A stretch of DNA of 64,000 bases from an uncultured Treponema sp. GTDB taxonomy: Bacteria > Spirochaetota > Spirochaetia > Treponematales > Treponemataceae. The notes under the pieces are model-generated. The model was not told where the DNA came from and ran no database searches. It was given only the letters and a program-made list of their open reading frames with translations. The stretch is from the NCBI GenBank assembly GCA_946411505.1, contig CAMKEG010000006.1, positions 62,001 to 126,000 of the forward strand, written 5' to 3'. Below are positions 41,247 through 63,074 of the stretch, piece after piece. A program made the position numbers and the translations under genes. The number at the start of each line of letters is the position of its first letter. The first letter of the stretch is position 1.

Positions 41247-41804
41247 TCAACCGGCCGGCTTCGCGCTTTCGCTTAGCGAAATCTCTTCAAAGGCAAGGTC
41301 GAATTTTATTTCGTTGTTGCAAAGGTCTATTTTCACAGTCGCGCGGCCTTGCTTTCGGTTCACTTTTGTTATTTTCCCTTCAAAGCCAGTCAATGGGCCC
41401 TTTGTGATTACAATTCGCTGGTTTTGGTCAAAGTATGCCTTTGAGATTCCCTGCGTCTCGCCGAATTTCAGCAGGTTTGAAAGGTATTCCATGTCCTTTC
41501 CTTGAATGTGAACAATGTCGGCGTTTGTGTTGAGGAAATGGTAGAAGTTTTGGCATTTTTTTGTCGCGGCGACAAGGGCCGCGTCCAAGTTTTCCGTTGA
41601 CATGAACACGTAGCCGGGGAAAAGCGCCTGTTCGTATTCGACTTTTTTCGCGTTTTTCATGCGTTTTTTGAAAAACGTGATTTTGGCTTCGCTGAGAGTT
41701 TTTTGTGAAAGGCGCGCTTTACGAATCGTTTCGTCAAAGTCTTTCTTGAACGATTCCTCGCCTCCGCTTTTTACCATCAAGCAATACCATTTCATAAATT
41801 TCAT
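41247..41804 (-). CDS. NusG-family antitermination factor, LoaP-like, at the head of a polysaccharide locus
   Basis: A 185-residue NusG paralogue. NGN domain about residues 1-110: WYCLMVKSGGEESFKKDF, then YEQALFPGYVFMSTENLDAA, the family signature. KOW domain at the C-terminus: VITKGPLTGFEGKITKVNRK with GRATVKIDL. Specialised NusG paralogues (RfaH, UpxY, LoaP) stop early termination in long polysaccharide operons; LoaP types occur in spirochaetes and bind an RNA hairpin in the leader. This gene is transcribed away from a locus of more than 20 kb. I start at 41804 (GAAG upstream), because the 41894 frame runs through the promoter. It could instead be a general NusG, but its position argues for a specialised one. 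Confidence 0.7.
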   Translation of the reverse strand: MKFMKWYCLMVKSGGEESFKKDFDETIRKARLSQKTLSEAKITFFKKRMKNAKKVEYEQALFPGYVFMSTENLDAALVAATKKCQNFYHFLNTNADIVHIQGKDMEYLSNLLKFGETQGISKAYFDQNQRIVITKGPLTGFEGKITKVNRKQGRATVKIDLCNNEIKFDLAFEEISLSESAKPAG

Positions 41805-41837
41805 TTTACTTCTTTTTGGCTCGGAATGCAAGGTCGT

Positions 41838-41866
41838 ATTATACTCTGCCGCGCGTTTTGTTGACA
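41838..41866 (-). promoter_or_regulatory. Probable weak promoter of the NusG paralogue
   Basis: On the minus strand a perfect TATAAT (41843-41838) with a 17-nt spacer, but the -35 position (TGTCAA) is the complement of the -35 box of the divergent locus promoter. The two promoters therefore compete for the same DNA. Confidence 0.45.
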
Positions 41867-41889
41867 CATTGCCCTGATTGTTATATAAT
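41861..41889 (+). promoter_or_regulatory. Consensus promoter of the polysaccharide locus
   Basis: TTGACA (41861-41866), 17-nt spacer, TATAAT (41884-41889): an exact sigma-70 consensus in both boxes. The start near 41896 gives a leader of about 176 nt before gmd. This is the strongest promoter sequence in the window. Confidence 0.85.
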
Positions 41890-41895
41890 TGCACA

Positions 41896-42071
41896 TTAAT
41901 CAGTTGAATGCTAGCCGTGACGCTCGATAGGAGCGCGGCCGGGCGCTTCGATCACTTGTTCCTTCATTGCGCGGGCAAAAAGCGCTTTTTTACGGAACGG
42001 TCTTTTTTTAAGGCTTACTACGGAAGGGAGAAGTTATATCCAATCGCATGGTTTTTTAAGGAGAATGTCAT
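41896..42071 (+). promoter_or_regulatory. Structured leader RNA of the polysaccharide locus
   Basis: Leader between the consensus promoter and gmd. First, a hairpin: GCCG (41914-41917), a three-base TGA bulge, CGCTC (41921-41925), loop GATAG, GAGCG and CGGC (to 41939). Second, a terminator-like structure: TTGTTCC (41957-41963) pairing with GGAACGG (41995-42001), enclosing GCGC / GCGC, followed by TCTTTTTTT (to 42009); a further T6 lies at 41986-41991. No ops/JUMPstart sequence is present. AAGGAG stands 8 nt before the gmd ATG. The order promoter, bulged hairpin, terminator is what antitermination by a NusG paralogue would need. Confidence 0.5.
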
Positions 42072-43148
42072 ATGGACAAAATCGCGTTAATCACAGGAAT
42101 CACGGGCCAGGACGGCTCTTTTTTGGCGGAATTTTTGCTGGACAAGGGCTATGACGTCCACGGAATAATCCGCCGCTCGTCCAGCTTCAACACCGCCCGC
42201 ATCGAGCACCTTTACATTGACGACCTTATTGAGGACATGCACAAGGACAAAAAGGTAAAGCTTCACTACGGAGACCTTACCGACAGCGAAAGCCTGATCC
42301 GCCTTATCCGCGAAATTAAGCCGACCGAAATCTACAACCTCGGCGCCCAGAGCCATGTAAAGGTCAGCTTTGACGTTCCCGAATACACCGCCGACACGGA
42401 CGCGACCGGCGTTTTGCGCATTTTGGAAGCCGTCCACTTTTTGGGAATGGACAAGACTTGCCGCATTTACCAGGCCTCCACTTCGGAGCTCTTTGGCCTT
42501 GTGCAGGAGATTCCGCAAAAAGAGACCACGCCATTTTACCCGCGCTCGCCGTATGCCGTGGCCAAGCTTTACGGCTTTTGGATCATGAAAAACTACCGCG
42601 AGTCTTACGGAATGTTCTGTTCCAACGGAATTTTGTTCAACCACGAAAGCGAGAGGCGCGGTGAGACTTTCGTCACCCGCAAAATCACGCTTGCCGCAAG
42701 CCGCATCGCCCAGGGCTTCCAGAAAAAGCTTTACCTTGGAAACCTCAACGCCTTGCGCGACTGGGGCTACGCCAAGGACTACGTGGAATGCATGTGGCTT
42801 ATCTTGCAGCAGGAAAAGCCCGACGACTTTGTCGTTGCCACCGGCGAGCAGCACAGCGTGCGCGAATTCTGCCAGCTGGCCTTTAAGGAAGCCGGAATCG
42901 ACATCGAGTTTAAGGGCGAAGGCGTTGACGAAAAGGGCTACGACAAGGCGACAGGAAAGGTCTTGATTGAAGTTGACCCTAAGTATTTCCGCCCTGCGGA
43001 AGTCGAGACCCTTTTGGGCGACCCCACAAAGGCAAAATCAGTCCTAGGCTGGAACCCGACAAAGACAAGCTTTAAGGAATTGGTCCACATCATGATGAAG
43101 CACGACATGGAGTATGTCAAGAATGAGAGAACCGTACGGGCGAGATAA
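42072..43148 (+). CDS. gmd: GDP-mannose 4,6-dehydratase
   Basis: Gmd converts GDP-D-mannose to GDP-4-keto-6-deoxymannose, the first step to GDP-L-fucose and related sugars. The 358-residue extended SDR has [20 protein letters not shown] (NADP site), the family tag [68 protein letters not shown] (catalytic Thr/Ser-Glu) and [10 protein letters not shown] with the Tyr-x3-Lys pair, then [21 protein letters not shown] near the end. First gene after the structured leader; fcl, which uses its product, is two genes on. Confidence 0.95.
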
Positions 43149-43153
43149 GGATT

Positions 43154-44077
43154 ATGGCTTTGCGTTCACGAAAAATAGACTGTACGTCGGATTCCGTAGT
43201 ACAAAAAGTTTATGAGAGTGATAAAAACTTTTTTATCAGGGATACAAATGCAAAGTCAAAAAATTGCATAGTTTGCTTTTCTGGAAATGGACTTTATTAC
43301 CCTGATGAAGAAGCTTGCTTTATTGAAACTGTAATTAATAAAAACCGCTATGAATGGCAAAACATTACTAAATCAAAAAAAATTGAACAAAGAGTAAGCC
43401 GCTTTATTTTTTTGCGAGACGTTCATAAACAATGGTATGTGGAAGGAATAAATAAGACCGTTGATACTGTTGATAAAGTTTTTGATTTGTTAAGAGAATT
43501 GACAATTGGATACGAAGTAATTACGGTTGGGAATTCTGCGGGGGGGTATGCGGCCGTTCTTTTTGGATGTCTGTTGGGCGCAAAAAAAATTTTTTGTGTA
43601 AGCGGTCAATTTTTTTTTAGTGAAGAGATATTGAATGTATGTAGGCTAGTTCGTCTGCATAAAAACGAAGAAAAGTATTCTAAGTATTATGATTTACGCT
43701 CTCTTGTTTCAAGTTATTCGGGCTTTTTGATTTATATTTTTCCTTGTTATTCAGACATCGACATCCAACAATGGAAGCATATAAGTGATTTGAAAAATGT
43801 AATAGCTATTAGAATAAATTCAGATAGTCATGGGGCTGGTTTGCTTCCGGAAAATTGGCAGTATGTTTTTTTTGAAAAAGGCGCAGATTTAAAAAGAAAA
43901 ATCGATTCTGAAAGGGTTTATGCGCCGGAGGAATTTTATAACATATCATTGCCTTGCAGTGTTGCAATTATGGATGGAATGAAGAAATGCTTAAAGAAAA
44001 GCGCCAAGACGTTTCTTATAAAAATTGGGCTTTTTTCTAAGTTGAAAAGTTTTTCAAGAAGAAATCGAAAGAGGTAA
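43154..44077 (+). CDS. Alpha/beta-hydrolase-like protein of the polysaccharide locus
   Basis: A 307-residue protein that I do not recognise. Its central VITVGNSAGGYAAVLFGCLL (about residues 121-141) has the G-x-S-x-G nucleophile elbow of alpha/beta hydrolases, with Ser near 127, and NSDSHGAGLLPENW near 225-240 could supply the His. A deacylase, esterase or acyltransferase acting on the polysaccharide is plausible. The gene is AT-rich and uses A/T-ending codons, unlike gmd and fcl on either side, so it looks inserted. The elbow codons contain a G7 tract (43540-43546), where slippage would cut the protein at its active site. Confidence 0.5.
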   Translation: MALRSRKIDCTSDSVVQKVYESDKNFFIRDTNAKSKNCIVCFSGNGLYYPDEEACFIETVINKNRYEWQNITKSKKIEQRVSRFIFLRDVHKQWYVEGINKTVDTVDKVFDLLRELTIGYEVITVGNSAGGYAAVLFGCLLGAKKIFCVSGQFFFSEEILNVCRLVRLHKNEEKYSKYYDLRSLVSSYSGFLIYIFPCYSDIDIQQWKHISDLKNVIAIRINSDSHGAGLLPENWQYVFFEKGADLKRKIDSERVYAPEEFYNISLPCSVAIMDGMKKCLKKSAKTFLIKIGLFSKLKSFSRRNRKR

Positions 44078-44097
44078 TTATAAAAAGGGTAATAGTT

Positions 44098-45075
44098 ATG
44101 GAAAAGAACGCTAAGATTTACGTTGCCGGCCACCGGGGCTTGGTTGGCGGCTCTATTGTCCGCTGCCTAAAGGAAAAGGGCTACACGAACATCGTCACGA
44201 GGACTCACAAGGAGCTTGACCTTTTGAACCAAGCCGCCGTAAACGAATTTTTCGCCGCGGAAAAGCCGGAATATGTTTTTTTGGCGGCGGCCCATGTAGG
44301 CGGAATCGGAGCCAACTCCACTTATCCGGCCGACTTCATCTACCAAAACATGGTCATAGGCTTTAACGTGGTGGAAGCTGCGCGCGTTAACGGCGTAAAA
44401 AAATTGATGAACCTAGGTTCCACCTGCATATACCCCAAGATGGCCGAGCAGCCGATTAAGGAGGAGTCGCTTTTGACAGGCCCCTTGGAGCCGACCAACG
44501 ACGCCTACGCCTTGGCCAAAATCAGCGTCATAAAATTGTGTACCGCTTACAACAAGCAGTTTGGAACAAACTTTTTGAGCGTCATGCCCACAAACCTTTA
44601 CGGCCTTGGCGACAACTACGAGCTTCAGGGAAGCCACGTCTTTCCTGCGATGATCCGAAAATTCCACGAGGCCAAGGCTAGCGGCGAGGATGTCGTCCAC
44701 CTTTGGGGCGACGGCTCTCCTTTGCGCGAATTCTTGTTTGCCGGAGACCTTGCCGACGCGGTGGTCTACCTTATGGAAAACAAGGACGCCTCCGACTTGC
44801 GGACTCCCACCGGCGACTTTGTCAACGTCGGCACCGGAAAGGAGTGCACGATCAAGGAATTGGCCGAAACAGTCCGCGACGTTGTCTACGCCGACGTGGC
44901 CGCGTCGGGCCGGACTTGCAAGATGGAATGGGATTCTTCCAAGCCCAACGGCACTCCGCGCAAGCTTTGCGACGTGACCCGCCTTAACGCTCTTGGCTGG
45001 AAGGCCAAGGTTGACGTGCGCGAGGGCGTTGAGATAAGCTATGACGACTTTTTGCATGGGGATGTAAGGAAGTGA
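44098..45075 (+). CDS. fcl: GDP-L-fucose synthase
   Basis: Fcl epimerises and reduces GDP-4-keto-6-deoxymannose to GDP-L-fucose with NADPH. The 325-residue SDR has YVAGHRGLVGGSIVRCL, TRTHKELDLLNQAAVNEFFA, FLAAAHVGGIGANSTYPADF, LGSTCIYPKMAEQPIKEESL and YALAKISVIKLC (Tyr-x3-Lys), and YGLGDNYELQGSHVFPAMIR, all typical of the family. With gmd it completes the pathway from GDP-mannose. It overlaps the transporter gene by 4 bp (GTGA). Confidence 0.94.
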   Translation: MEKNAKIYVAGHRGLVGGSIVRCLKEKGYTNIVTRTHKELDLLNQAAVNEFFAAEKPEYVFLAAAHVGGIGANSTYPADFIYQNMVIGFNVVEAARVNGVKKLMNLGSTCIYPKMAEQPIKEESLLTGPLEPTNDAYALAKISVIKLCTAYNKQFGTNFLSVMPTNLYGLGDNYELQGSHVFPAMIRKFHEAKASGEDVVHLWGDGSPLREFLFAGDLADAVVYLMENKDASDLRTPTGDFVNVGTGKECTIKELAETVRDVVYADVAASGRTCKMEWDSSKPNGTPRKLCDVTRLNALGWKAKVDVREGVEISYDDFLHGDVRK

Positions 45076-45923
45076 GCCAGCCAGAACAGTGGACAAAAGT
45101 TATCACCGCAAAAAAACGCCTTATGGACTTGCATCTTAGGGACGTGTGGATTTACCGCTACCTTATAAAAATGTTCATAAAGCGCGACTTTGTCACGCAA
45201 TACAAGCAGACGATTTTGGGCCCCTTGTGGTACTTGGTCCAGCCGTTGATTACCGCATTTATGTACATGTTCATTTTTGGAAAAATGGCCAAGGTTGGAA
45301 CGGACGGAGTGCCTTTTATACTTTTTTATTTTGCGGGAACCATGCTTTGGACTTACTTTACGTCTTGCCTTGACTCTTGCTCCAAGACCTTCACTAACAA
45401 CCAAAACATTTTTGGAAAGGTTTATTTTCCGCGCCTTACCTCTCCAATCGCCACTTGCGGTTTCCATATTATCAAGCTTTTGATGCAGTTTGCTTTGCTT
45501 GCCGCGATATTTTTGTACAGCGTTTTTGTCCAAAAGGTTAGGATAAACATTTCGTGGCTCGCATTGACTTTTCCCCTGATTGTTTTGTGGGTTGGCGTCC
45601 TTGGCGGAAGCATGGGCCTTATCATCAGCTCGCTTACGACCAAATACCGCGACCTTAACATTCTTTTGACATTCGGCATCCAGCTTGGCATGTACGCGAC
45701 GCCTGTCGTCTATCCGCTGTCGGAACTGCCGCCAAAATTTGGCTGGCTTGCATACGCCAACCCTATGTGCGCGCCGATAGAGTTTTTTAGAATCGCCTTT
45801 TACGGAGCGGGGCATCTGGACACAAGCGTAATCATTTGCAGCGTTTGCGCGACATTCGCCCTGGCCTTTTTTGGCCTTGTGCTCTTTACCCGAAACGAGA
45901 GAAATTTTGTGGATGTGATATAG
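45072..45923 (+). CDS. wzm: ABC-2 polysaccharide exporter, permease (Wzm-type)
   Basis: The permease of an ABC exporter that moves finished lipid-linked polysaccharide across the inner membrane. In 283 residues: an N-terminal amphipathic segment, LRDVWIYRYLIKMFIKRDFV, then KQTILGPLWYLVQPLITAFM, the usual Wzm/KpsM/TagG start, and about six membrane helices, with ALTFPLIVLWVGVLGGSMGL and TFGIQLGMYATPVVYPLSEL. GTG start overlapping fcl. Its ATPase follows at once. Confidence 0.9.
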   Translation: MSQPEQWTKVITAKKRLMDLHLRDVWIYRYLIKMFIKRDFVTQYKQTILGPLWYLVQPLITAFMYMFIFGKMAKVGTDGVPFILFYFAGTMLWTYFTSCLDSCSKTFTNNQNIFGKVYFPRLTSPIATCGFHIIKLLMQFALLAAIFLYSVFVQKVRINISWLALTFPLIVLWVGVLGGSMGLIISSLTTKYRDLNILLTFGIQLGMYATPVVYPLSELPPKFGWLAYANPMCAPIEFFRIAFYGAGHLDTSVIICSVCATFALAFFGLVLFTRNERNFVDVI

Positions 45924-45931
45924 GAGTGGGT

Positions 45932-47170
45932 GTGGCAAACAACGATATCGCGATTAAAGTAGAGAACCTCTCAAAGTATTACAAGCTTGGCGTAATCAAC
46001 AACGGAACGCTCTTCCGCGACATTCAAAGCTGGTGGGCGCGTATCCGCGGAAAGGAAGACCCCCACGCTAAAATTGGAAGCAAGTACGACCACTCGCAAG
46101 AAGGCTTTTGGGCGCTTAAGGATTTGAACTTTGAAATAAAAAAAGGCGACCGCGTCGGAATCATCGGCCACAACGGCGCCGGAAAGTCAACTTTGTTAAA
46201 ACTCCTTAGCCAAATCACCGCCCCTACCGAAGGCAACATAAAAATCAACGGCAAAATAGCAAGCCTTTTGGAAGTTGGAACCGGCTTCCACCCCGAGATG
46301 ACCGGCCGCGAGAACATCTACATGAACGGCGCCATCCTTGGCATGAGCCACGACGAGATTGACAAAAAGGTTGACGCCATCATCGAGTTTAGCGAAATTG
46401 GCGAGCACATAGACACTCCCGTAAAGCGCTACTCCAGCGGCATGTACGTGCGCCTTGCCTTTGCCGTCGCCGCCCACTTGGACAGCGACATACTTATTGC
46501 CGACGAGGTGCTGGCGGTAGGGGACGCGGCTTTTCAGAAAAAGGCTCTGGGAAAGATGAACGAGCTTTCCAGCGGAGAAGGGCGGACGGTTTTGTTTGTA
46601 AGTCACAATATGGAGCAGGTGAAGAATTTGTGCAACAAGGGCATTGTGCTGGAGAAGGGAAGGGTAGTAAGGCAGGATGATGACATTGAAAAGTCGATAA
46701 ATTATTATCTGGGGAAGAATGAAGATAATAGTGATGTAGTGACGACTTCTTGGAAGAATGACGGAAGGGTTTGGGATGAGAGCTTTAATCCTTTGAGTTT
46801 TGAGATTTTGACAATAGATGATAAGGTGGTGACAGGACCGCTTGATTATGAAAAGGATTATAAAGTTAGGTTGACGGTAGATGTAAAAAAGCCTGATTCG
46901 AATGTTGATTTCTGGATTGCCTGCTATAAGGGGGGGGAGCTTTTTTTTAATTTGCCTATGCCTAGTGATTTTAAGTTTAAAAAAAACAAGAATGTCTTTG
47001 ATTTCTTCATGCCTAAAACAACGATTTTACCAGGTTTATACACTTTTACATTAGGGTCTTCTTTAAAAAATATAAAGTGGATTGTAAATTCATTTGAATT
47101 TGAGATAACGATTATGACAACTATTTTATCTCCTAAGCAACGGATTTTTGAGACGATGGTTGTTTGTTAG
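45932..47170 (+). CDS. wzt: Polysaccharide ABC exporter, ATPase with carbohydrate-binding C-terminus (Wzt-type)
   Basis: ATPase partner of Wzm. Residues 1-240 are the nucleotide-binding domain: IGHNGAGKSTLLKLLSQITA (Walker A), GTGFHPEMTGRENIYMNGAI, YSSGMYVRLAFAVAAHLDSD (signature), ILIADEVLAVGD (Walker B) and LFVSHNM. Residues about 290-412 are a beta-sandwich like the Wzt C-terminal domain that recognises the polysaccharide end (FEILTIDDKVVTGPLDYEKD). Start is GTG 45932, five bases after AGGAG. Base use shifts from the local G/C-ending style to AT-rich from about 46600, at the domain boundary, so the recognition domain was probably exchanged. A G8 tract lies at 46930-46937. Confidence 0.9.
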   Translation: MANNDIAIKVENLSKYYKLGVINNGTLFRDIQSWWARIRGKEDPHAKIGSKYDHSQEGFWALKDLNFEIKKGDRVGIIGHNGAGKSTLLKLLSQITAPTEGNIKINGKIASLLEVGTGFHPEMTGRENIYMNGAILGMSHDEIDKKVDAIIEFSEIGEHIDTPVKRYSSGMYVRLAFAVAAHLDSDILIADEVLAVGDAAFQKKALGKMNELSSGEGRTVLFVSHNMEQVKNLCNKGIVLEKGRVVRQDDDIEKSINYYLGKNEDNSDVVTTSWKNDGRVWDESFNPLSFEILTIDDKVVTGPLDYEKDYKVRLTVDVKKPDSNVDFWIACYKGGELFFNLPMPSDFKFKKNKNVFDFFMPKTTILPGLYTFTLGSSLKNIKWIVNSFEFEITIMTTILSPKQRIFETMVVC

Positions 47171-47198
47171 TCTGTTTCAGTAGGTGTAAAGTTCTATT

Positions 47199-47330
47199 AT
47201 GCAACTTTTAATCCTTGTTGGAGGAAAAATCGCTAACTTACGCGAAAAAAAATTTAATGAATCGATTTTACCTGAGAGTCATATAAAAAAGAATTGTATT
47301 ATATGCTATGTGGATGAAATGTTGAAATAA
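47199..47330 (+). pseudogene. Short fragment resembling a nucleotidyltransferase N-terminus
   Basis: A 43-codon ORF beginning MQLLILVGGKIANLREKKF. The first residues parallel the start of RfbF in this window (MQTLILAGGKGTRLGEETRK at 55162), but the key G-T-R-L of the nucleotide loop is damaged and similarity then fades. No ribosome site precedes it. It may be the scar of a lost sugar nucleotidyltransferase gene; the alternative is chance. Confidence 0.3.
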
Positions 47331-47350
47331 ATTTATAATAAGGAATTGTT

Positions 47351-48814
47351 ATGTTAGAAACTCCAGTTTTATATATTGTTTTTAATCGCCTTGATACCGT
47401 AAAACAAACATTTCTAAAAATAAAACAGGCACGGCCCAAGGAATTATATATTGCTGCCGATGGACCTCGATTAATTAGAGAGGGTGAAGCAGAAAAATGT
47501 AAGGAAGTTCGGGGATGGGTTCTGGAACAAATAGATTGGGATTGTAATGTCCATACCTTGTTTAGGGAGGAAAATTTAGGTTGTGGAAGAGGGGTTTCTT
47601 CAGCCATTACTTGGTTTTTCGATAATGTTGAGCAAGGAATAATATTAGAGGATGACTGCTTACCAAGTTTGAGTTTTTTCACGTTTTCTCAAGAAATGCT
47701 TCAGAGATACAAGGATAATGAGAGTATTTACTTAATTTCTGGTACAAATATCAATGATAAGCGAGTTTATGGTAAAGGCTATTTCTTTTCTCAACTTGGG
47801 GGAATATGGGGCTGGGCTTCATGGAAAAGGGCTTGGCATAATTTTAAATTTGATATAAGCAACTTGGTTTCCGAAGAAAATTTAAAATTATGCGAAACAC
47901 ATCTAGGTATAAAAAACTCTGTCGAATGGATGAGAGAAATTTTCTTTAAAGATGTTGATACCTGGGATTATCAATGGCTTTTTATTCGCTTGTTAAATGG
48001 AGGTCTTTCGATAGTTCCTGAAAAAAATTTAATCTCTAATATAGGTTTTCAAGCAGATTCATCTCACACTTCTAGCGCTTCATCTCCTTTTGCTAATTTA
48101 CCTTCTTACGAGTTGAAATTTCCAGTGGAAAAGCAAAATATTGTGGTTTCCAAAGAATACGATAAGTATTTTTCAAAGTTTTTCAAAACAAGTAAAAATA
48201 ATTTTGTAAAAAAAATAATTAGTTTCCCTAAACGTTGTATTAAGCATATACTCCGTCGACTGTATATAATTGCATCTGCGGCGCCTGCAAAAACTTATGA
48301 CTGCATTTATGATAAAACAACAGTTTTTCATCCAGAAGCATCTGTGATGGCTATGAACTCGCCCGATTCAATTATTGTTGGGGCTGGAACACATATTAGA
48401 GGTAATTTACAAACATATCCGCATGGAGGAAACATTACTATTGGAAAAAACTGTTATGTAGGAGATCATACCAGAATTTGGTCTTCTTCAAAAATAGAAA
48501 TTGGTGATTATGTATTAATTTCACATAATGTTAATATTTTTGATGATACAACACATCCAGTTGATTCAATTGAGCGTCGAAAACATGCTGAATATATATT
48601 TACAAAAGGATTCCCTAAAGAAATGACTTCATTGGATCCTAAGCCGATAAAAATAGAAAAAGACGCTTGGATTTGTTGTAATTCTATAATTCTTAGAGGT
48701 ATTACAATCGGCGAAGGTTCTATTGTAGCGGCAGGAAGTGTTGTAACAAAAGATGTCCCCCCTTATACAATGGTTGCCGGAAATCCGGCAAAAATTATAA
48801 AGAAGATAAAATAA
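47351..48814 (+). CDS. Glycosyltransferase fused to a hexapeptide-repeat acetyltransferase
   Basis: A 487-residue two-domain enzyme. Residues 1-about 270 are a GT-A type glycosyltransferase: TPVLYIVFNRLDTVKQTFLK, ELYIAADGPR, EENLGCGRGVSSAITWFFDN and GIILEDDCLPS, with the E-D-D metal motif, and GIWGWASWKRAW. Residues about 325-487 are a left-handed beta-helix acyltransferase (ITIGKNCYVGDHTRIWSSSK, IEIGDYVLISHNVNIFDDTT, ITIGEGSIVAAGSVVTKDVP, YTMVAGNPAKIIKKI), as in WcaF/NodL O-acetyltransferases. One protein could therefore add a sugar and O-acetylate it. Both halves are AT-rich. It starts at 47351 with AAGGA upstream. Confidence 0.8.
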   Translation: MLETPVLYIVFNRLDTVKQTFLKIKQARPKELYIAADGPRLIREGEAEKCKEVRGWVLEQIDWDCNVHTLFREENLGCGRGVSSAITWFFDNVEQGIILEDDCLPSLSFFTFSQEMLQRYKDNESIYLISGTNINDKRVYGKGYFFSQLGGIWGWASWKRAWHNFKFDISNLVSEENLKLCETHLGIKNSVEWMREIFFKDVDTWDYQWLFIRLLNGGLSIVPEKNLISNIGFQADSSHTSSASSPFANLPSYELKFPVEKQNIVVSKEYDKYFSKFFKTSKNNFVKKIISFPKRCIKHILRRLYIIASAAPAKTYDCIYDKTTVFHPEASVMAMNSPDSIIVGAGTHIRGNLQTYPHGGNITIGKNCYVGDHTRIWSSSKIEIGDYVLISHNVNIFDDTTHPVDSIERRKHAEYIFTKGFPKEMTSLDPKPIKIEKDAWICCNSIILRGITIGEGSIVAAGSVVTKDVPPYTMVAGNPAKIIKKIK

Positions 48815-48843
48815 AATCCAAACAAAAGGTAGGTTGGATTTGA

Positions 48844-49023
48844 TTAAAAATAGATAAAGCTTGGAAGCGGCTTGAAGATTGGTCTGTAGAAGATGAAAAA
48901 GCGATTCCTTTTTGTGAAGAATATAAAAAAATGCTAGCTTTAAATATGATGAATACTAATTTGGGAAAATTAAATTTGCCATTAAAAGCTATTGGAAAGA
49001 CAAACGGTGATCTTTATTTATGA
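48844..49023 (+). pseudogene. Start-less coding remnant
   Basis: An open frame of 59 codons after a TGA at 48841, with no start codon before an internal ATG: it reads DKAWKRLEDWSVEDEKAIPF and ends KAIGKTNGDLYL, overlapping the next ATG by 3 bases. It looks like the 3' end of a gene whose beginning was lost. I cannot name the parent family. Confidence 0.35.
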
Positions 49024-49913
49024 GAAAGATTTTAATTATTGGTTCTGAAGGTTTTATAGGTAGCCACTTGACTGCATTTTATCAACAAAAAGCTTGTGAT
49101 GTTTTAAGAGTTGATATTGTTGATAAAAAGGATGTTAATTACATTCAAGTTGACAAAGAAAATCCTCTCTTTCATTCGATTTTTGAAAACTTTAAACCTG
49201 ATGTATGTCTTAATTGTAGCGGCGCCGCCAGCGTTCCTTTTTCATTTGAACAACCGTTAAATGACTTTAAGCTAAATGTTTTGAATGTAGTTGTTTTACT
49301 AGATGCCATTAGATTACATTCTCCAAATTGCAGGTTTGTAAATTTTTCAAGCGCAGCTGTTTATGGGAACCCTATATCAATTCCTGTTAAAGAAAAATTT
49401 GAAAAAAATCCTATATCTCCATATGGTTTTCATAAAAGTGTAGTTGAAGATATCATGGCTGAGTATAGTAGATTTTTCAATTTGAAAGTATGTACACTTC
49501 GTTTGTTTTCGGCTTATGGGAACGGCTTGCGAAAGCAAATAATGTTCGACTTGTATAATAAGTTTACGAACGATCCACAAGTGAAACTTTTTGGAACTGG
49601 TAAAGAAACTCGTGATTATATACATATCGATGACATTTGCAGTGTTGTTGATTTAGTTTTGGCAAATTCTAATTTTGACAATGATGTTGTTAATGTTGCG
49701 ACTGGGAAAGAAGTTGCTCTTTCTGAACTTGTAGATATTTTTAAGAAAACGATTTGTTGCAATAAAGAAGTTTTGTATTCTGGTTCTGTTAGAACAGGGG
49801 ATCCATCTAGGTGGCAGGCTGATGTGTCAAAAATAATTTCATGGGGATATAAGCAAACTGTCGACTTGGAGAATGGAATAGAGAGGTATGTAAAATGGAT
49901 AAGAAACGCATAG
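49020..49913 (+). CDS. NAD-dependent sugar epimerase/dehydratase (SDR)
   Basis: A 297-residue extended SDR. It has ILIIGSEGFIGSHLTAFYQQ (NAD-binding Gly motif), CLNCSGAASVPFSFEQPLND, FVNFSSAAVYGNPISIPVKE and SPYGFHKSVVED with the Tyr-x3-Lys pair, then RLFSAYGNGLRKQIMFDL and TGKETRDYIHIDDICSVVDL. Similar to UDP-hexose 4-epimerases and related dehydratases; the exact substrate cannot be told. AT-rich like its neighbours. It overlaps the following glycosyltransferase by 19 nt. Confidence 0.8.
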   Translation: MRKILIIGSEGFIGSHLTAFYQQKACDVLRVDIVDKKDVNYIQVDKENPLFHSIFENFKPDVCLNCSGAASVPFSFEQPLNDFKLNVLNVVVLLDAIRLHSPNCRFVNFSSAAVYGNPISIPVKEKFEKNPISPYGFHKSVVEDIMAEYSRFFNLKVCTLRLFSAYGNGLRKQIMFDLYNKFTNDPQVKLFGTGKETRDYIHIDDICSVVDLVLANSNFDNDVVNVATGKEVALSELVDIFKKTICCNKEVLYSGSVRTGDPSRWQADVSKIISWGYKQTVDLENGIERYVKWIRNA

Positions 49914-50956
49914 GAATTTATTATACCTCATCTGACAATTGGATTGGAGGAAAGTATTATCTTGATGGCGTAATAAGTGTTCTGAAAAAAAATCCAAACA
50001 TAGAAATTCTTTATTTGGATAAATACGAAAGAAGTTTTTTCTTGAAGATTATTGGAAAGTTATTTGGCAGGAATTCAGAATTGTATAAAGATAAGCTTTG
50101 CAAGGAAATGAACAAATGGAACCTTGATGTTGTTTTTCCTTATGTTGATGGTTCTTACATTGCAAAGAAAAATATATCTTGGATACCGGATTTTCAAGAG
50201 AATTATTACCCAGGTTTTTTTTCTGTAGATGAAATTTGCAATAGGTTGTCAAATCAAGCTAGGGTCGCTTACTCAAAAAATTTGCTTGTTTTGTCTAGCG
50301 ACAGCGCCAAAAAAGATTTTAAGAGATTGTTCCCTTGTTATTCTTGCGATGTGTTTGTCCTGTCGTTTGTTTCTTCTCTCAATAATGTATCGCATTCAGT
50401 GTCCAGGTCTGTCATTGAAAAGTATGGAATAAATGAGCCTTTTTTTATATGCTCAAATCAGTTGTGGGAGCATAAAAATCATCTGGTTGTCATTAATGCG
50501 GTGAAAAAAATGAAAGAAAATGGAAAGCATGTTTTATGTGTTTTTACTGGTAAAGAGTCAGATTATCGTAATCCTGATTTTCCTGCTTCGCTTAAGAATC
50601 TTGTAAAAGTTTTGCGTCTTGAAAATGAGATTCGTTTTTTAGGTTTCATATCTCGTGAGGATCAAATAGAATTGATGAAGGCAAGTGTAGCTGTGATTCA
50701 GCCGTCTTTGTTCGAGGGATGGAATACTACAATAGAAGATGCTAAGTTTCTCAAAAAAAAAATTATAGCTTCTTCTTTGCCTGTGCACATGGAGCAACTG
50801 AAAGAAAAGGGAATTTATTTTAATCCAAATGATTGCGGTGAATTGGCAAATATTTTGTCGCAAATGAATCCTTTGGAGTCAAGCGTTGATTATGATTATA
50901 AAAGTCAAGCTGAAGAATACTGTAATAATGTAAGAAAAATTTTTTTGGAAGGTTGA
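49895..50956 (+). CDS. GT4-type glycosyltransferase
   Basis: A 353-residue GT-B fold enzyme. The N-terminus (RIGIYYTSSDNWIGGKYYLD) has the Gly-rich start of GT4 enzymes. The C-terminal domain has ICSNQLWEHKNHLVVINAVK, VCVFTGKESDYRN and FLGFISREDQIELMKASVAV. PSLFEGWNTTIEDAKFLKKK carries the donor-binding E-x7-E motif (Glu of FEGWN and Glu of TIEDA). It probably adds one sugar of the repeat unit from a nucleotide sugar on the cytoplasmic face. AT-rich; the last intact gene before the transposase fossil. Confidence 0.82.
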   Translation: MDKKRIGIYYTSSDNWIGGKYYLDGVISVLKKNPNIEILYLDKYERSFFLKIIGKLFGRNSELYKDKLCKEMNKWNLDVVFPYVDGSYIAKKNISWIPDFQENYYPGFFSVDEICNRLSNQARVAYSKNLLVLSSDSAKKDFKRLFPCYSCDVFVLSFVSSLNNVSHSVSRSVIEKYGINEPFFICSNQLWEHKNHLVVINAVKKMKENGKHVLCVFTGKESDYRNPDFPASLKNLVKVLRLENEIRFLGFISREDQIELMKASVAVIQPSLFEGWNTTIEDAKFLKKKIIASSLPVHMEQLKEKGIYFNPNDCGELANILSQMNPLESSVDYDYKSQAEEYCNNVRKIFLEG

Positions 50957-51051
50957 TTTTTTTTATGATGATGCTTTTTGATTCTGTGAAAGTTTTTCTG
51001 TAAATTCCCAAAAAGTTGGCGCTGTGGTAAATTAAACACAGGAGCCTAATT

Positions 51052-51796
51052 ATGGCAAAAAAAACACCACCACACAAAGTCGTAATGACTGAAGGCAAAA
51101 TAGAGATTATCAGAAATCTGCTTTCAGAATACGACATCAAAGACGCCCATGACATTTAGGAAGCGCTGAAGGATCTTCTTGGCGGAACCATCAAGGAAAT
51201 GATGGAAGCCGAAATGGAAGACTGTTTGTGGTATGAAAATTCAGAGCGTTCTGACAATGACGATTCCCGGAACCTTTACAGATCAAAGACAGTAAAGTCC
51301 AGCATTGGCGAAGTCGTGCTTGAAGTTCTGCAGGGCCGAAAGGAAGTGCTGTCACTCGCCATAGGCGAAAGGGAGAGCTCCAAGTTCTGACCGAACGCCC
51401 TGAACGAGTTTAAGAACCTCGGCGTGAAGGATATACAACGCCGCTTCCGAAGATGAGGGGGCTGAAAGTCTGCGATCGTACCGTTGAAAAATGGTCGGCG
51501 AAATATTCGAACTCCATAAAACGCTAGACTGAAAACAGGGATGTTGTAGTTTCGATTTTCAAGTTCTCAAAAGATGTCCAAAAAATCATCTACACAGTAA
51601 ACGCGATCGAAAGCCTGAACTCCCGCTACCGGAAGCTTAGCCTCCAGCGCAGCGTGTTCCCAGGCGGCCAAGCCCTGCTTGAGGCTTTGTACCTTGTAAC
51701 ATTTGAAGCGATAAAAAAATGGACCCAGTCGATTCATAACTGGGCCAGGCCTATGGCGAAATGTGCATAATGTACGAAGGCCGCCTGCCGGACTAA
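51052..51796 (+). mobile_element. Decayed IS256-family transposase
   Basis: Remnant of an IS256 (Mutator-like) transposase. The start reads MAKKTPPHKVVMTEGKIEII, then a stop after AHDI, then LLGGTIKEMMEAEMEDCLWY and SSIGEVVLEVLQGRKEVLSL, then another stop. After internal loss of most of the catalytic region the C-terminus returns: KIIYTVNAIESLNSRYRKLS (the conserved I-Y-T-x-N-A-I-E-S-L-N block), ALLEALYLVTFEAIKKWTQS and HNWARPMAKCA. At least three in-frame stops and a deletion make it inactive. Base use differs from the AT-rich genes on its left. I could not find matching terminal repeats. Confidence 0.8.
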
Positions 51797-51803
51797 TTAA
51801 AAA

Positions 51804-51835
51804 AAAGACAACTTCCCGACGAGGAAGCTGTCTTT
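51804..51835 (-). terminator. Hairpin after the IS remnant
   Basis: AAAGACAACTTCC pairs with GGAAGCTGTCTTT (13 positions, one mismatch) around a 6-nt loop. A run of A before it on the plus strand makes it a good terminator on the minus strand (T8); on the plus strand only three T follow. Confidence 0.6.
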
Positions 51836-51993
51836 AGCATTTAGCTCTTGATAAAAAATCAGCAATAATTTATATTCGGAAAAGAAACAGTAGCTGTAAG
51901 CTGCTTGCGGGACACGACCGCATTAAAACTTTTTACCGCAACCTACTAAATTTATAGACAAATCCTGTCATATAAATTTGTAATGGTCAAAAT

Positions 51994-53199
51994 ATGAACT
52001 TGGCAGAATGGGTAAAGACAAAAATTGGAAGATGTAAAATTCTTTATGCAATCCTGGCTAAAATTTATCATGCCCCATTGGCTTCTGCCGCTTTGGCAAA
52101 GCGAAGTTTTCTTCTTTTCAAGTCTCGTTCGGCCTTTCGCGCTCTTCTTGCCTCTGGCAAGAAATATGACTTGGTTTTCATGCATTGTCTTGGCGGCGGA
52201 ACTGAAGTGTATGTGAAAAACACGTTGCGAGGAAAAACGGACTATATAGTTTTTAAAAACTATAACATTTTTGGCTTCCAAGAAATTTATTCTTTGGAAG
52301 TTTGCGGGATAAAGACGCCCTTTTTTATCGGGGCGGACGACATAATCAGCCTGGAAAAAATTGCCGGCGCTGTTTTTGTTGAAAACCTTTGCGGCTATGG
52401 CGACTGCGACCTTATCCTAAAAACGATAGCCGCCTTTTCCGCAAAAATTTCGTTTAAAGTCCATGACTTTTATTCCGCGTGTCCTAAGGTCAACATGATA
52501 AGGAACTTCCGTTATTGTGGCGTGACATGCGACTCGTCTTGCGTTAATGATGTCGGCGGGCGGCCATACAGCCCCGATCGATGGCGGACTATGTGGGGAA
52601 CTTTCTTTGAGCGGGTGGATGAGTTTTTCTTTTTTTCTGAAAGCTCCGAGAAAATCCTTTGCTCTATATATAAAATTCCCCCCAAAAAAATAAGACTGAA
52701 GCCCCACGACATGGGGTATTTTACCCCTAAAGTAATTTCCAGCTTGCCAACGAATTTGAACATAGGAATTTTTGGAAGCATAACATCCGAAGCAAAAGGC
52801 TTTTCCGTGGTGAAGAGTTTCGCCGAATTTTCTCGTGGCAAGGACTATAAAATATTCTTGAACGGTCTTGTCGGCGAGCCTGACCAGGATGTCTTTAGCA
52901 AGAACGAGAATTTCGTTCAATGCGGCCCATACAAGACGGAAGAAATTTATGACCGCCTTGTGTCGCAAAAGATAGGCGTTGTGTTCTTTTCAAGCGTATG
53001 GCCGGAAACATTTTCTTATGTTGTTTCGGAGCTGATGCTGACAGGAATTCCCATCGCTTGTTTTGATGTCGGCGCCCAGGCGGAAAAGATAAAAGAATAT
53101 CCTTTGGGAAAAATCATTCCGGGTTTTTCCAATGAATCCATACTAAAAACGCTGCGGGAATGCCATGCCATTGGCAGGGAGCGATATGACAATGAATAA
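51994..53199 (+). CDS. Glycosyltransferase, GT4-like
   Basis: A 401-residue cytoplasmic enzyme. The N-terminal half has LVFMHCLGGGTEVYVKNTLR, recalling the Gly-rich acceptor loop of GT4 enzymes, and FKVHDFYSACPKVNMI with CGVTCDSSC (several Cys). The C-terminal half has LNIGIFGSITSEAKGFSVVK and GVVFFSSVWPETFSYVVSEL, whose PE...SE positions suit the E-x7-E donor motif. It restarts the locus after the IS scar; the ATG at 51994 lacks a clear ribosome site. Base use returns towards that of the chromosome. Confidence 0.75.
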   Translation: MNLAEWVKTKIGRCKILYAILAKIYHAPLASAALAKRSFLLFKSRSAFRALLASGKKYDLVFMHCLGGGTEVYVKNTLRGKTDYIVFKNYNIFGFQEIYSLEVCGIKTPFFIGADDIISLEKIAGAVFVENLCGYGDCDLILKTIAAFSAKISFKVHDFYSACPKVNMIRNFRYCGVTCDSSCVNDVGGRPYSPDRWRTMWGTFFERVDEFFFFSESSEKILCSIYKIPPKKIRLKPHDMGYFTPKVISSLPTNLNIGIFGSITSEAKGFSVVKSFAEFSRGKDYKIFLNGLVGEPDQDVFSKNENFVQCGPYKTEEIYDRLVSQKIGVVFFSSVWPETFSYVVSELMLTGIPIACFDVGAQAEKIKEYPLGKIIPGFSNESILKTLRECHAIGRERYDNE

Positions 53200-53977
53200 A
53201 CCTATGCTTTCCATTGTTACGATTAATTATAACAATAAGGATGGGCTTGACAAGACCATAAAGTCTGTGCTGGAACAACGCGGGCTTCCTGCCGGGAGCC
53301 TTGAATACATAATTGTAGACGGAGGTTCAACGGACGGAAGCGTTGATGTCATAAAAAAATATTTGGCAGGCGGTTACTCCCATAAAATTTCGAAATGGGT
53401 CAGTGAAAAAGACTCTGGAATATACAACGCTTTTAACAAGGGCATAGGAATGGCAGAAGGGGATATAATAGGCCTGTTGAATTCTGGCGACACTGTTATT
53501 GACGGCGCATACGACAATATCCTTGAAATCCATAAAACTCGTCCTGATTCGATTTTGTATGGCGTGGAGAATTTTTGCAGAGACGGAAAATTTGTTGGCA
53601 TTTTTGGCCCTTGCGCTGATGAGCTTCCAATTCGAATGATAGCCCACTCGGCGTCTTTTGTCCCTAGAAAAATATATGAAAAATATGGCTTGTATGACGA
53701 GTCATTTAAAAGTTCCGGGGATTGGGACTTGTTCCTTACATTCTATCAAGCCGGGGTTTCTTTTTACTACATCAATAAAATTGTCGTTGACTTTGACGCT
53801 TGCGGAATAAGCAATTCAAACCTGAAGCTTGTTGAAGAGGAAAACATAAGGCTCCTTGAAAAACATGGAATAAAAGCAAACAAATCAAATGCCTTTGTAA
53901 AAAGAGTTCTGCATTTCTTGCTTCCAGGCTTTTGTTTTTTTATTTTTAGAAAGTTGTCAAAGTTGATTCGTTCTTGA
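53186..53977 (+). CDS. GT2-family glycosyltransferase
   Basis: A 263-residue GT-A enzyme: LSIVTINYNNKDGLDKTIKS at the N-terminus, YIIVDGGSTDGSVDVIKKYL (first Asp site), VSEKDSGIYNAFNKGIGMAE and GDIIGLLNSGDTVIDGAYDN, where the metal-binding D-x-D is replaced by NSGD as in the WcaA/WbbD-like subgroup. ESFKSSGDWDLFLTFYQAG carries the ED/WD acceptor region. The C-terminal 30 residues are hydrophobic (LHFLLPGFCFFIFRKL). I start at ATG 53186, 14 nt inside the previous gene, rather than upstream 53165. Confidence 0.85.
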   Translation: MTMNKPMLSIVTINYNNKDGLDKTIKSVLEQRGLPAGSLEYIIVDGGSTDGSVDVIKKYLAGGYSHKISKWVSEKDSGIYNAFNKGIGMAEGDIIGLLNSGDTVIDGAYDNILEIHKTRPDSILYGVENFCRDGKFVGIFGPCADELPIRMIAHSASFVPRKIYEKYGLYDESFKSSGDWDLFLTFYQAGVSFYYINKIVVDFDACGISNSNLKLVEEENIRLLEKHGIKANKSNAFVKRVLHFLLPGFCFFIFRKLSKLIRS

Positions 53978-53987
53978 GGAGTTGGAA

Positions 53988-55100
53988 ATGCGCAAAGCGT
54001 CACCTGAAATTTCTGTTTTGATTCCTTACTACAATGACAGAGCGTTTTTAAGGCAGTCCATACAGTCGGTTTTAAGCCAAACATTCAAAGATTTTGAACT
54101 CATATTGATAAACCACGCCACTCAAGACGATTGCCGTGAAATCGCGCGTTCCTTTGACGACCCTAGAATCGTTCACGTTGACTTGGAATTTAACAACGGG
54201 GCGGGCGGTGGCTTTGTTTTTGAAGCTTTTATAGGAAAAGCCAGCGGCAAATACATAAAGTTTTTTTGCGCCGATGACGTTATGAAAAGCGACTGCCTTG
54301 AAAAGCTACATTCATACTTGGCTTCAAACCCTGACAAGGACATCGTTTTTGGCGATGCCCGTCTTGTGGACAAGAACGGTTCTCCAAAGAAACTTTTGTG
54401 GTCAGAGCGCTTTGCTGACTTTTCATTTGAGGACGACAATCTTTCGCTTTTGAAGAAATTCTTTGACAAAAAAAGTTTTCTTCCGCTTCCTGCCTGCCTG
54501 TTCAAAAGAACTGCCGCCGACGGCCTGAAAATCGACAAGTCGCTGATCATCGAATTTGACCAGAGCCTTTGGATTCAAATGATGATGCGCGGAGTGAATT
54601 TTGGCTTTACACGCGACGTGGTTTTCGACTACAGGGTTCACAAGTTTCAAAACTCTACGGTAAGGTTTGATAACCGCGTAGACGAATACGATTTTTACGA
54701 GTCCATAATGCGCGCTAAGCTTTTTTATGGAATAAAGGACATCGTCCAGCTGGAACGCCTTTTGGGCGGATGCGAAAAGAAATTCGGCTTGTCCAAAAAA
54801 GACGTGGAATTTTTCCCGTTTGCGATTGCCTGCTATTACCTTGAAAAGCATCAAAACCTAAGCTGCAAAGTCGCGGGTTACGAATACTTGCACGGTTGCA
54901 TGGAAGACCCCAGGTCCAGACAAAAGTTAAAGGAGCGGTTTGGCTTTACCGTGGCCGACTTTAGGCTTCTCTACAAGAACTCCCATGGGTTTAATCCGTC
55001 CATGTATATGGAATATATTGGAATAAAGGGCGGAATTGTGATGGTTCTAAAAAAAATCTACGAAAAATTGTTTGGCCGGCTCTACGCCAAGATTCTTTGA
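53988..55100 (+). CDS. GT2-family glycosyltransferase, paralogue 1
   Basis: A 370-residue enzyme: PEISVLIPYYNDRAFLRQSI, QTFKDFELILINHATQDDCR, HVDLEFNNGAGGGFVFEAFI and KYIKFFCADDVMKSDCLEKL (CADD metal motif). The C-terminal half (about 230-370) is helical. Its first 110 residues closely match those of the gene at 61766, with the same NHA and GAGGG segments, so the two are paralogues on either side of the CDP-sugar genes. Start at ATG 53988, with GAGGAG upstream; TTG at 53982 is an alternative. Confidence 0.85.
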   Translation: MRKASPEISVLIPYYNDRAFLRQSIQSVLSQTFKDFELILINHATQDDCREIARSFDDPRIVHVDLEFNNGAGGGFVFEAFIGKASGKYIKFFCADDVMKSDCLEKLHSYLASNPDKDIVFGDARLVDKNGSPKKLLWSERFADFSFEDDNLSLLKKFFDKKSFLPLPACLFKRTAADGLKIDKSLIIEFDQSLWIQMMMRGVNFGFTRDVVFDYRVHKFQNSTVRFDNRVDEYDFYESIMRAKLFYGIKDIVQLERLLGGCEKKFGLSKKDVEFFPFAIACYYLEKHQNLSCKVAGYEYLHGCMEDPRSRQKLKERFGFTVADFRLLYKNSHGFNPSMYMEYIGIKGGIVMVLKKIYEKLFGRLYAKIL

Positions 55101-55161
55101 CGGCCAGCTCGGCGCGTTTTTTTCAAATTTCGCTATATTGATTGTTCAGGAAACAAGACAT

Positions 55162-55947
55162 ATGCAAACATTGATACTTGCCGGCGGGAAAGGAACCCGT
55201 CTTGGAGAGGAAACTCGCAAGGTTCCAAAGCCTATGGTTCACATTGGCGGCTACCCGATTCTTTGGCACATAATGAAAATATATTCTCACTATGGCTACA
55301 ATGATTTTGTAATCCTTACGGGATACAAAGGACATGTTATAAAAGAATATTTTTTAAACTACTACAACCGCTACAGCGACATGACAATCGACATGTCGAA
55401 CAACGACGTTCAGATTCACAGAATGAGAAGCGAACCGTGGAGAATAACCATGCTTTACACGGGCGAGGTGACGATGACCGCCGGCCGCATCGCAAAGGCG
55501 AAGTCTTACATTGGAAACGAACCTTTCATGCTCACTTACGGCGACGGAGTCAGCGACGTTAACATAGACAAGTTAGTCGATTCCCATGTAAAGAGCGGAA
55601 AGCTTGTCTCGCTGACCGCAGTCCAGCCTGAAGGCCGCTTTGGCGCTTTGGACATTCAGCCGGACGGAACGATAAGCCAGTTTCAGGAAAAGCCCAGCGA
55701 CGCTTGGATTAACGGAGGCTTTTTTGTTTGCGAAAGCAAGGCGTTGGATTACATTCCCGAAGAATCCTATGACATTATGTGGGAACGCGCTCCGCTTCAA
55801 AACATCGCCAAGGACGGCCAGCTGCACGCCTACAAACATTCCGGCTTTTGGCATCCTATGGACATGCTTAAGGACAAGGAAGATTTGGAAAAATTATGGG
55901 CCTCGCATTCCGCGCCGTGGGATGTTTGGGGGCATTTTAAAAAATAG
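55162..55947 (+). CDS. rfbF: Glucose-1-phosphate cytidylyltransferase
   Basis: RfbF (DdhA) makes CDP-glucose from CTP and glucose 1-phosphate, the entry to CDP-3,6-dideoxyhexoses. The 261-residue protein has TLILAGGKGTRLGEETRKVP (nucleotide loop), PMVHIGGYPILWHIMKIYSH, FMLTYGDGVSDVNIDKLVDS (metal Asp), LTAVQPEGRFGALDIQ and the C-terminal WERAPLQNIAKDGQLHAYKH, all typical. I start at 55162; the 55072 frame is only an extension across the end of the previous gene. Followed by rfbG and rfbH in pathway order. Confidence 0.93.
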   Translation: MQTLILAGGKGTRLGEETRKVPKPMVHIGGYPILWHIMKIYSHYGYNDFVILTGYKGHVIKEYFLNYYNRYSDMTIDMSNNDVQIHRMRSEPWRITMLYTGEVTMTAGRIAKAKSYIGNEPFMLTYGDGVSDVNIDKLVDSHVKSGKLVSLTAVQPEGRFGALDIQPDGTISQFQEKPSDAWINGGFFVCESKALDYIPEESYDIMWERAPLQNIAKDGQLHAYKHSGFWHPMDMLKDKEDLEKLWASHSAPWDVWGHFKK

Positions 55948-55955
55948 GTCGCTCT

Positions 55956-57017
55956 ATGAACGGATTGTTAGGGTTCTATAAAAATAAAAAAGTTTTTCTA
56001 ACCGGCCACACGGGCTTTAAGGGAACATGGCTTAGCCGCATATTGATTTTGGCAGGCGCCGATGTTGCTGGCTTTTCTCTTGAGCCTCCGACAAATCCTA
56101 GTCTCTTTGAACTTACAAAAACCGCCAGCCAGATGAAGTCCATAATCGGCGACATTCGCGACGGCGAAAAACTCAAGTCCGCTATGACGGAATTCAAGCC
56201 GGACATCGTCCTGCACCTTGCCGCGCAGCCAATTGTTAGGGCCAGTTACAAAGACCCCGTTGGCACTTACGAAACAAACGTCATGGGCACGGTGAACGTT
56301 TTGGAAGCCGTCCGCGCCTGTCCGTCAGTCCGCTCCTTTGTAAACGTGACCACCGACAAGGTTTACCTTAACCGCGAGTGGGCGTGGGGCTACCGTGAGA
56401 ACGAAGAGCTTTGCGGCTACGACCCATATTCCAACAGCAAGTCTTGCTCGGAGCTTGTGACATACAGCTACCGCAATTCTTTCTTTAACGAAAAAGACGC
56501 CCCCGCCATTTCCACCGCGCGCAGCGGAAACGTAATCGGAGGCGGCGATTATGCCGTTGACAGAATAGTTCCCGACTGCATCCGCGCCGTTGAAGCGGGA
56601 AGAGACATAATTTTGCGAAACCCAAATTCAACGCGGCCTTACCAGCATGTTTTGGAATGCCTTCGCGGCTACTTGGCGCTGGCCAAGGCGCAATACGAAG
56701 ACAAGGCCTTTGTCGGCGCCTACAACTTTGGCCCAGACGACGAGTCCTGCGTGACTACGGGCCAGCTTGCAACGCTGTTCTGCGACGCGTGGGGAAGCGG
56801 AGCGGATTGGAAAAGCGTCAGCGAGGAGGGCGCCCCGCATGAGGCCAATTTCCTAAAGTTGGATTGCTCAAAGTCAAAAAATGTTCTTGGTTGGAAGCCT
56901 CTTTGGGGAATAAAGACCGCCGTGGAAAAAATAGTTGAATGGGAAAAAGCCGTTCAGGCTGGAACGCCTGCGGCGGAAATCACTGACAAGCAAATAAAAG
57001 AATATTTTGGGATGTGA
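55956..57017 (+). CDS. rfbG: CDP-glucose 4,6-dehydratase
   Basis: RfbG (DdhB) converts CDP-D-glucose to CDP-4-keto-6-deoxyglucose using bound NAD. The 353-residue SDR has VFLTGHTGFKGTWLSRILIL, the diagnostic GHTGFKG start, LHLAAQPIVRASYKDPVGTY, VNVTTDKVYLNREWAWGYRE and YDPYSNSKSCSELVTYSYRN with the Tyr-x3-Lys pair. RSGNVIGGGDYAVDRIVPDC and RPYQHVLECLRGYLALA follow. Gap of 8 nt after rfbF and 4 nt before rfbH. Confidence 0.95.
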   Translation: MNGLLGFYKNKKVFLTGHTGFKGTWLSRILILAGADVAGFSLEPPTNPSLFELTKTASQMKSIIGDIRDGEKLKSAMTEFKPDIVLHLAAQPIVRASYKDPVGTYETNVMGTVNVLEAVRACPSVRSFVNVTTDKVYLNREWAWGYRENEELCGYDPYSNSKSCSELVTYSYRNSFFNEKDAPAISTARSGNVIGGGDYAVDRIVPDCIRAVEAGRDIILRNPNSTRPYQHVLECLRGYLALAKAQYEDKAFVGAYNFGPDDESCVTTGQLATLFCDAWGSGADWKSVSEEGAPHEANFLKLDCSKSKNVLGWKPLWGIKTAVEKIVEWEKAVQAGTPAAEITDKQIKEYFGM

Positions 57018-57021
57018 GCTT

Positions 57022-58350: not shown

Positions 58351-58363
58351 GAGAGCAAAGCAT

Positions 58364-61764: not shown

Positions 61765-61765
61765 G

Positions 61766-62995: not shown

Positions 62996-63031
62996 GATTT
63001 TTAAAAATAATTTGATAGCAAAATTTTTTTG

Positions 63032-63059
63032 TTGACTAGAAGGGTTGTGCACATAATTT
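63032..63059 (+). promoter_or_regulatory. Possible internal promoter before the last SDR gene
   Basis: TTGACT (63032-63037), 16-nt spacer, TAATTT (63054-63059), in the 79-bp gap before the ATG at 63075. This is the only sizeable gap in the last 8 kb of the locus. Confidence 0.4.
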
Positions 63060-63074
63060 TTGGTTTGGACTTGT

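Follow-up and report, generated by a model that had tools for sequence, protein, structure and literature searches.

The polysaccharide locus described here opens with a conserved structured leader RNA (41896–42033), and it lies beside a gene whose product is LoaP-like by sequence and predicted fold. Good evidence supports this pairing of a LoaP-like protein with a polysaccharide operon whose leader RNA is conserved. We give an even chance to a broader reading, in which the RNA founds a new processive-antitermination family: a portable cassette of promoter and RNA, served in trans by one LoaP-like protein, would put operons for surface polysaccharide and for anti-phage defence (genes for type I restriction-modification, an Snf2 helicase and a YhcG-type nuclease) under one common antitermination switch in Treponema. 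Coordinates refer to the window, the whole stretch of 64,000 nucleotides that was analysed, taken from an uncultured Treponema sp. whose assembly comprises 2.82 Mb in 14 contigs.

The LoaP-like gene and the polysaccharide locus

The main features of the region, from the paralogue to the end of the locus, are as follows.

41247..41804 (-): LoaP-like NusG paralogue, 185 aa, the second NusG of the genome (NCBIfam, PDB and AlphaFold2 evidence)
41838..41867 (-): probable loaP promoter, GTGTCA-18-TATAAT, 10 of 12 matches
41861..41889 (+): operon promoter, TTGACA-17-TATAAT, belonging to the conserved promoter-RNA cassette
41894..42033 (+): structured leader RNA, conserved, matched by covariance model R2; putative transcript start at about 41896
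42072..63956 (+): O-antigen-like locus, 18 ORFs, running on to the window edge

The initial annotation had described a NusG paralogue divergent from a long locus with an exact-consensus promoter, and these elements were all borne out. The gene is one of exactly two PF02357 genes in the genome, the other being the housekeeping nusG (G000:C2:364806), so that it is not the sole NusG. The 18 ORFs of the locus lie on the opposite strand and include gmd, an fcl-like epimerase, an ABC export pair, glycosyltransferases and rfbF/G/H-like genes, among others. The operon promoter matches the consensus at 12 of 12 positions, its -35 element overlaps that of the probable loaP promoter, and we agree with the leader length of about 176 nt given previously. 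The ORF of the paralogue as listed begins at GTG 41894, and alignment with relatives indicates ATG 41804 as the most likely start, which gives 185 aa; the start at 41894 is disfavoured because the longer ORF would traverse the gene's own promoter region.

Among NCBIfam models, LoaP (NF033641) ranked best for the window protein, with 120.9 bits (E 5.8e-35), followed by NusG (68.3 bits), UpxY (50.6) and RfaH (33.3), and thus led the NusG model by 52 bits. As the curated LoaP cut-off is 125 bits, about 4 bits above this score, we name the protein LoaP-like and do not certify it as LoaP. With a cut-off of 144.5 bits for the RfaH model, the protein is not RfaH by profile. Its closest PDB sequence is 8f5g (E 7.8e-13), an entry titled as a NusG-RNA complex, which we take to be the LoaP-RNA structure that PMC12691694 cites. 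The AlphaFold2 model (pLDDT 92, pTM 0.84) contains an NGN domain and a predicted beta C-terminal domain, the latter unlike the helical hairpin of autoinhibited RfaH. A Foldseek search with this model placed three 8f5g chains on top (E 3.9e-14 to 2e-11, TM 0.73), ahead of housekeeping NusG as next best (1.7e-7) and RfaH (2.8e-5). LoaP-like genes beside polysaccharide operons are already known, and LoaP occurs near biosynthetic operons in Bacillota, Actinomycetota and Spirochaetota (PMC12691694).

Conservation and anatomy of the leader RNA

The window leader aligns end to end, with 81% mean column identity, with the leaders of three relatives in which loaP is divergent from the operon (L034, L035 and L036). 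Compensatory changes are present among these four leaders, and covariation was detected when they were aligned by sequence alone (0.319 versus 0.203). A covariance model made from the four (R1) gave 37 matches in 20 of 200 genomes of the genus, together with weaker matches near loaP at other loci. With a second model (R2), made from 40 sequences, 67 copies were found, spread over 40 of the 196 genomes sampled from the genus. Across a phylum sample of 393 genomes, R2 matched the same genus and two more genera of its family; a single marginal sequence elsewhere (G222, E 0.0018) was not counted as an occurrence outside the family, as most of its 5' domain is absent. These counts are lower bounds, reflecting coarse prefilters in the genome searches and many fragmented metagenome-assembled genomes (MAGs). 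The window genome holds a single copy, the next candidates having E values of 5.7 and 9.0. LoaP-like loci of termite-gut Treponema, T. vincentii and environmental spirochaetes gave no convincing RNA match in the flanks searched, and a pattern scan for the P2 hairpin (see below) in LoaP-like loci yielded zero new members.

Over 66 distinct sequences, standard pairs fill 90.6% of cells (71.7% when shuffled) and both sides change in 21 of 22 pairs. The covariation score of this alignment, which was fitted to the model and is therefore biased toward the structure, is 0.525, against 0.234 for shuffled and 0.067–0.145 for slid structures, and none of 500 shuffles reaches it. RNAalifold, applied to the alignment of 40 sequences, recovered P2 and P3 unaided. 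That the stems covary instead of keeping a fixed sequence argues for pairing at the RNA level. No Rfam family, epsC/EAR included, matched the window leader (E up to 5) or the RNA at 20 loci. The helices of the window RNA are listed below.

41903..41952 (+): 5' domain, with P1 (GUUG 41903–41906 / CGAU 41949–41952) and P1b (GCU 41910–41912 / GGC 41942–41944); covarying helices 1 and 2
41914..41939 (+): P2/P2b bulged hairpin, with GCCG/CGGC, a U.G wobble, the bulge GAC, GCUC/GAGC and the loop GAUAG; helices 3 and 4
41959..41965 (+): 5' strand of P5, UUCCUUC, pairing with GAAGGGA at 42023–42029; from individual folds, covariation weak
41969..41985 (+): P3 hairpin, GCGC-GGGCAAAAA-GCGC; helix 5, 95% paired
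41999..42015 (+): P4 hairpin, GGUCUU/AAGGCU; helix 6, 81% paired, with double changes
42023..42029 (+): 3' strand of P5, GAAGGGA, inside the conserved ACGGAAGGGAGAAG motif; from individual folds

The bulged hairpin GCCG-UGA-CGCUC-GAUAG-GAGCG-CGGC (41914–41939) had been put forward earlier as a candidate recognition element. The hairpin exists and folds (z -1.9), and it is kept, with compensatory changes, in loci beside loaP of related genomes. What has to be revised is its extent, as this real and conserved hairpin is one arm of a two-domain RNA of about 135 nt that starts near +1. Its helices 3 and 4 are 95–100% paired with many compensatory changes. The wobble is U.G, or C.A in another subtype, the bulge of 3 nt is usually GAN, and most copies have GNUAG or GNUUG as their loop.

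The 3' domain is more variable. P3 shows double changes in all 4 of its pairs and is missing from a short subtype, which retains the 5' domain and the purine motif and has one small hairpin instead of P3 and P4. The long subtype has two copies of the sequence ACGGAA around P4, the first of which the short one lacks. P5 appears in most individual folds. In the full set its covariation was not separated from that of shuffled partners (145 of 200 as good), because the two strands are always pyrimidine-rich and purine-rich, respectively; for the long subtype alone it was weakly significant (8 of 200 shuffles). P5 probably closes the 3' domain of the long form, holding P3 and P4. A pseudoknot between GUYC and the GGGC loop of P3 looked attractive in the first four sequences and was rejected, as it was not significant in 39 (40 of 200 shuffles equal).

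Cassette copies and their association with loaP

The conserved unit includes the promoter. A near-perfect sigma-70 promoter ends 2–10 nt 5' of the RNA in 58 of 65 copies, and the mean best promoter match over the 65 copies is 10.6 of 12, versus 6.5 in shuffles. As the promoter was left out of the covariance model, its enrichment is independent support for the RNA matches. A promoter of this strength implies strong initiation, so that control, if any, would come after initiation. Inverted repeats flanking the cassette were found neither in the window nor in most copies checked, and for the window promoter we rejected an invertible arrangement on this ground.

Several genomes carry two to nine copies of the cassette (G186, G195, G069, G054, G198, G128 and G075), each with one intact LoaP-like gene and, in G198, an additional partial match. 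Where copies have unrelated flanks, their similarity is limited to promoter and RNA, about 175 bp. In gut and rumen Treponema, two main kinds of gene follow the cassette. Sugar and polysaccharide genes include gmd, fcl, those for an RfbH-type aminotransferase and FdtA, and flippases. The second kind, restricted to some species and found mostly in multi-copy genomes, consists of defence genes: type I methyltransferases (L145, L155 and L160), a type I restriction enzyme (L163), a YhcG nuclease (L161), a DEAD/UvrD helicase protein (L158) and a Schlafen-domain protein with an Snf2/PLD helicase (L157). The one intact loaP of these genomes is located away from the cassettes that precede defence genes. 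Other genes, such as those for LRR proteins (L173) and an integrase (L164), also occur. This survey of downstream genes is partial, many contigs stopping just 3' of the RNA. In MAGs, for example, the contigs of L143, L144, L150, L152, L167, L165 and L177 stop about 10–330 nt after it, which suggests that repeated or variable sequence at these places breaks the assembly.

The RNA tracks the protein across genomes. Among 146 genomes, the RNA and a LoaP-like gene are both present in 30 and both absent from 74; the gene occurs by itself in 40 and the RNA by itself in 2 (odds ratio 28, p 9e-10, in a test that ignores shared ancestry). In one of the two genomes with the RNA alone, G130, a degraded loaP remnant lies just upstream of the RNA, and in the other, G006, the contig stops 167 nt upstream. 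At most single-copy loci the RNA begins within about 130 nt of loaP, divergently or right after its stop codon, or follows it on the same strand at a distance of no more than a few kb. At L172 and L173, loaP survives as a degraded C-terminal remnant directly 5' of an intact-looking leader RNA. Many LoaP-like loci of the genus and family have no detectable RNA copy, with L042, L043, L055 and L069 among those of the genus with no RNA nearby. Such LoaP-like genes may use another signal.

A proposed antitermination system and its alternatives

We think it fairly likely that the leader is the cis half, and the LoaP-like protein the trans half, of a processive antitermination system, with binding and antitermination as its putative steps. 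Transcription would start at the strong promoter and the first 100–140 nt would fold into the bulged-hairpin domain (P1/P2), to which the long form would add a junction closed by P5 with P3 and P4. The LoaP-like protein would then bind the RNA as it emerges, probably through the bulged hairpin, which is the best candidate contact because it is the part kept in every subtype. The bound protein would stay on RNA polymerase and suppress pausing or termination along the long operon. In the window genome it would act on one detected target, in cis, and in relatives as many as nine cassette copies seem to share a single intact loaP, whose product would act in trans.

The B. velezensis LoaP system (8f5g) is the closest by protein sequence and predicted fold. 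There, LoaP binds a leader hairpin and antiterminates, an UNCG-type hairpin being required and NusA antagonised (PMC12691694). As at the dfn and mln operons of that species, a NusG paralogue neighbours a long biosynthetic operon whose 5' leader contains a conserved RNA hairpin. The B. velezensis ligand is a small UNCG-capped hairpin 5' of a NusA-dependent terminator, whereas the Treponema RNA measures about 100–140 nt, has a GNUAG-type loop, starts near +1 and shows no evident terminator. No stable UNCG-capped stem is conserved in the 67 RNAs. Also unlike the B. velezensis targets, the operons headed by the Treponema cassette include defence operons. Part of the LoaP-type layout proposed initially is upheld, namely a LoaP-like protein beside the conserved leader RNA of a polysaccharide operon, and the order of a recognition hairpin followed by an intrinsic terminator is not.

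The size of the RNA raises the possibility that it is a self-sufficient antiterminator that acts on RNA polymerase directly, the LoaP-like protein assisting or acting later. EAR (epsC) is a large structured RNA of Bacillales, and the put RNAs of phage HK022 are structured, lie early in the transcript and may alter the elongating polymerase with no partner protein. We know of no case in which EAR acts with a NusG paralogue. The Treponema RNA has some of the same properties: it is large, multi-helix and promoter-proximal, it is conserved far past one hairpin, unlike the small dfn hairpin, and it starts near +1 in most copies. Some RNAs, moreover, persist beside a loaP remnant, as in G130. For EAR, a link to the antitermination of polysaccharide operons is cited in PMC12691694. 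The Treponema RNA resembles it in being a large structured RNA of such operons and differs in accompanying a NusG paralogue and in having no Rfam match even at permissive thresholds. It resembles put, compared in sequence via Rfam alone, in being structured and early in the transcript, but put needs no partner protein. Given its close adjacency to and co-occurrence with loaP, we consider self-sufficiency of the RNA unlikely.

A conventional attenuator or riboswitch is a rather improbable reading of the leader. Here, the pyrimidine tract would pair either with the first ACGGAA, before the U-run, or with the second, as P5, and a ligand or protein would toggle between terminator and read-through. 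The two ACGGAA copies of the long subtype, with a U-run after the first, are consistent with such a switch, as is the alternative fold that is possible in the window (GUUCC 41958–41962 with GGAAC 41994–41998, -12.6 kcal/mol). Of 65 RNAs, 13 also contain a terminator-like hairpin, where 1.5 would be expected. However, the terminator pairing shows no covariation across the family: in each of 200 trials, shuffled partners pair equally well or better. Its frequency is 27 of 38, versus 52% in shuffles, and P3, P4 and the first ACGGAA are all missing from short-subtype RNAs. The terminator ending in T7 that had been drawn at 41957–42009 is likewise unsupported, since T42003–T42009 sit in the stem and loop of P4. 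A consensus terminator scan found none in the window leader, and an energy scan of the leader gave only a hairpin of -5 kcal/mol, located elsewhere than the structure drawn. We thus rejected an intrinsic terminator as a conserved feature of the family. The GUUCC/GGAAC fold may form briefly while the polymerase is at the U-run.

RfaH and its ops element share with the Treponema pair a NusG paralogue, long operons such as O-antigen loci and a promoter-proximal signal. The protein could read DNA in the transcription bubble at an ops-like site, as RfaH does, the RNA structure having another role. The P2 loop, C-GNUAG-G, resembles the CGGTAG core of ops, and 7 of the 67 copies match ops with at most 2 mismatches. 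However, ops is a fixed DNA sequence, and it is absent from the window leader, as had been noted initially: the best match has 3 mismatches among 9 fixed bases. The covarying stems, the RfaH score below its cut-off and the predicted beta C-terminal domain also speak against DNA reading, which we regard as very unlikely. That the cassette is only a strong promoter that has moved or been duplicated together with a stabilising 5' UTR, unconnected to NusG-type control, is highly improbable: copies do have only promoter and RNA in common, but flanking inverted repeats are absent as described above, and the RNA tracks loaP across genomes and within loci.

Antitermination by the LoaP-like protein through the leader RNA would extend what a NusG paralogue can recognise to a large RNA at the transcript start, as the pairing suggests. 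In a literature search that covered few subscription journals, we found no report of the Treponema RNA, of NusG paralogues tied to restriction-modification operons, or of a LoaP target signal in Spirochaetota. The covariation-backed RNA and its partner protein are a concrete pair that can be made and tested, and the model serves to pick out candidate targets in genome sequences. Transcription elongation would connect phage defence with surface polysaccharide, and defence genes would gain a new layer of control.

Two minor features of the window lie outside the cassette. Within the polysaccharide locus, about 1 kb (50957–51993) contains no intact gene and by eye resembles a broken transposase remnant. 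Between scpA and loaP, a repeat of about 146 bp (41085–41230) contains a 17-nt inverted repeat (41139–41155 / 41187–41203). It has at least 40 copies in the same genome, 76–100% identical, and is probably a dispersed intergenic repeat element.
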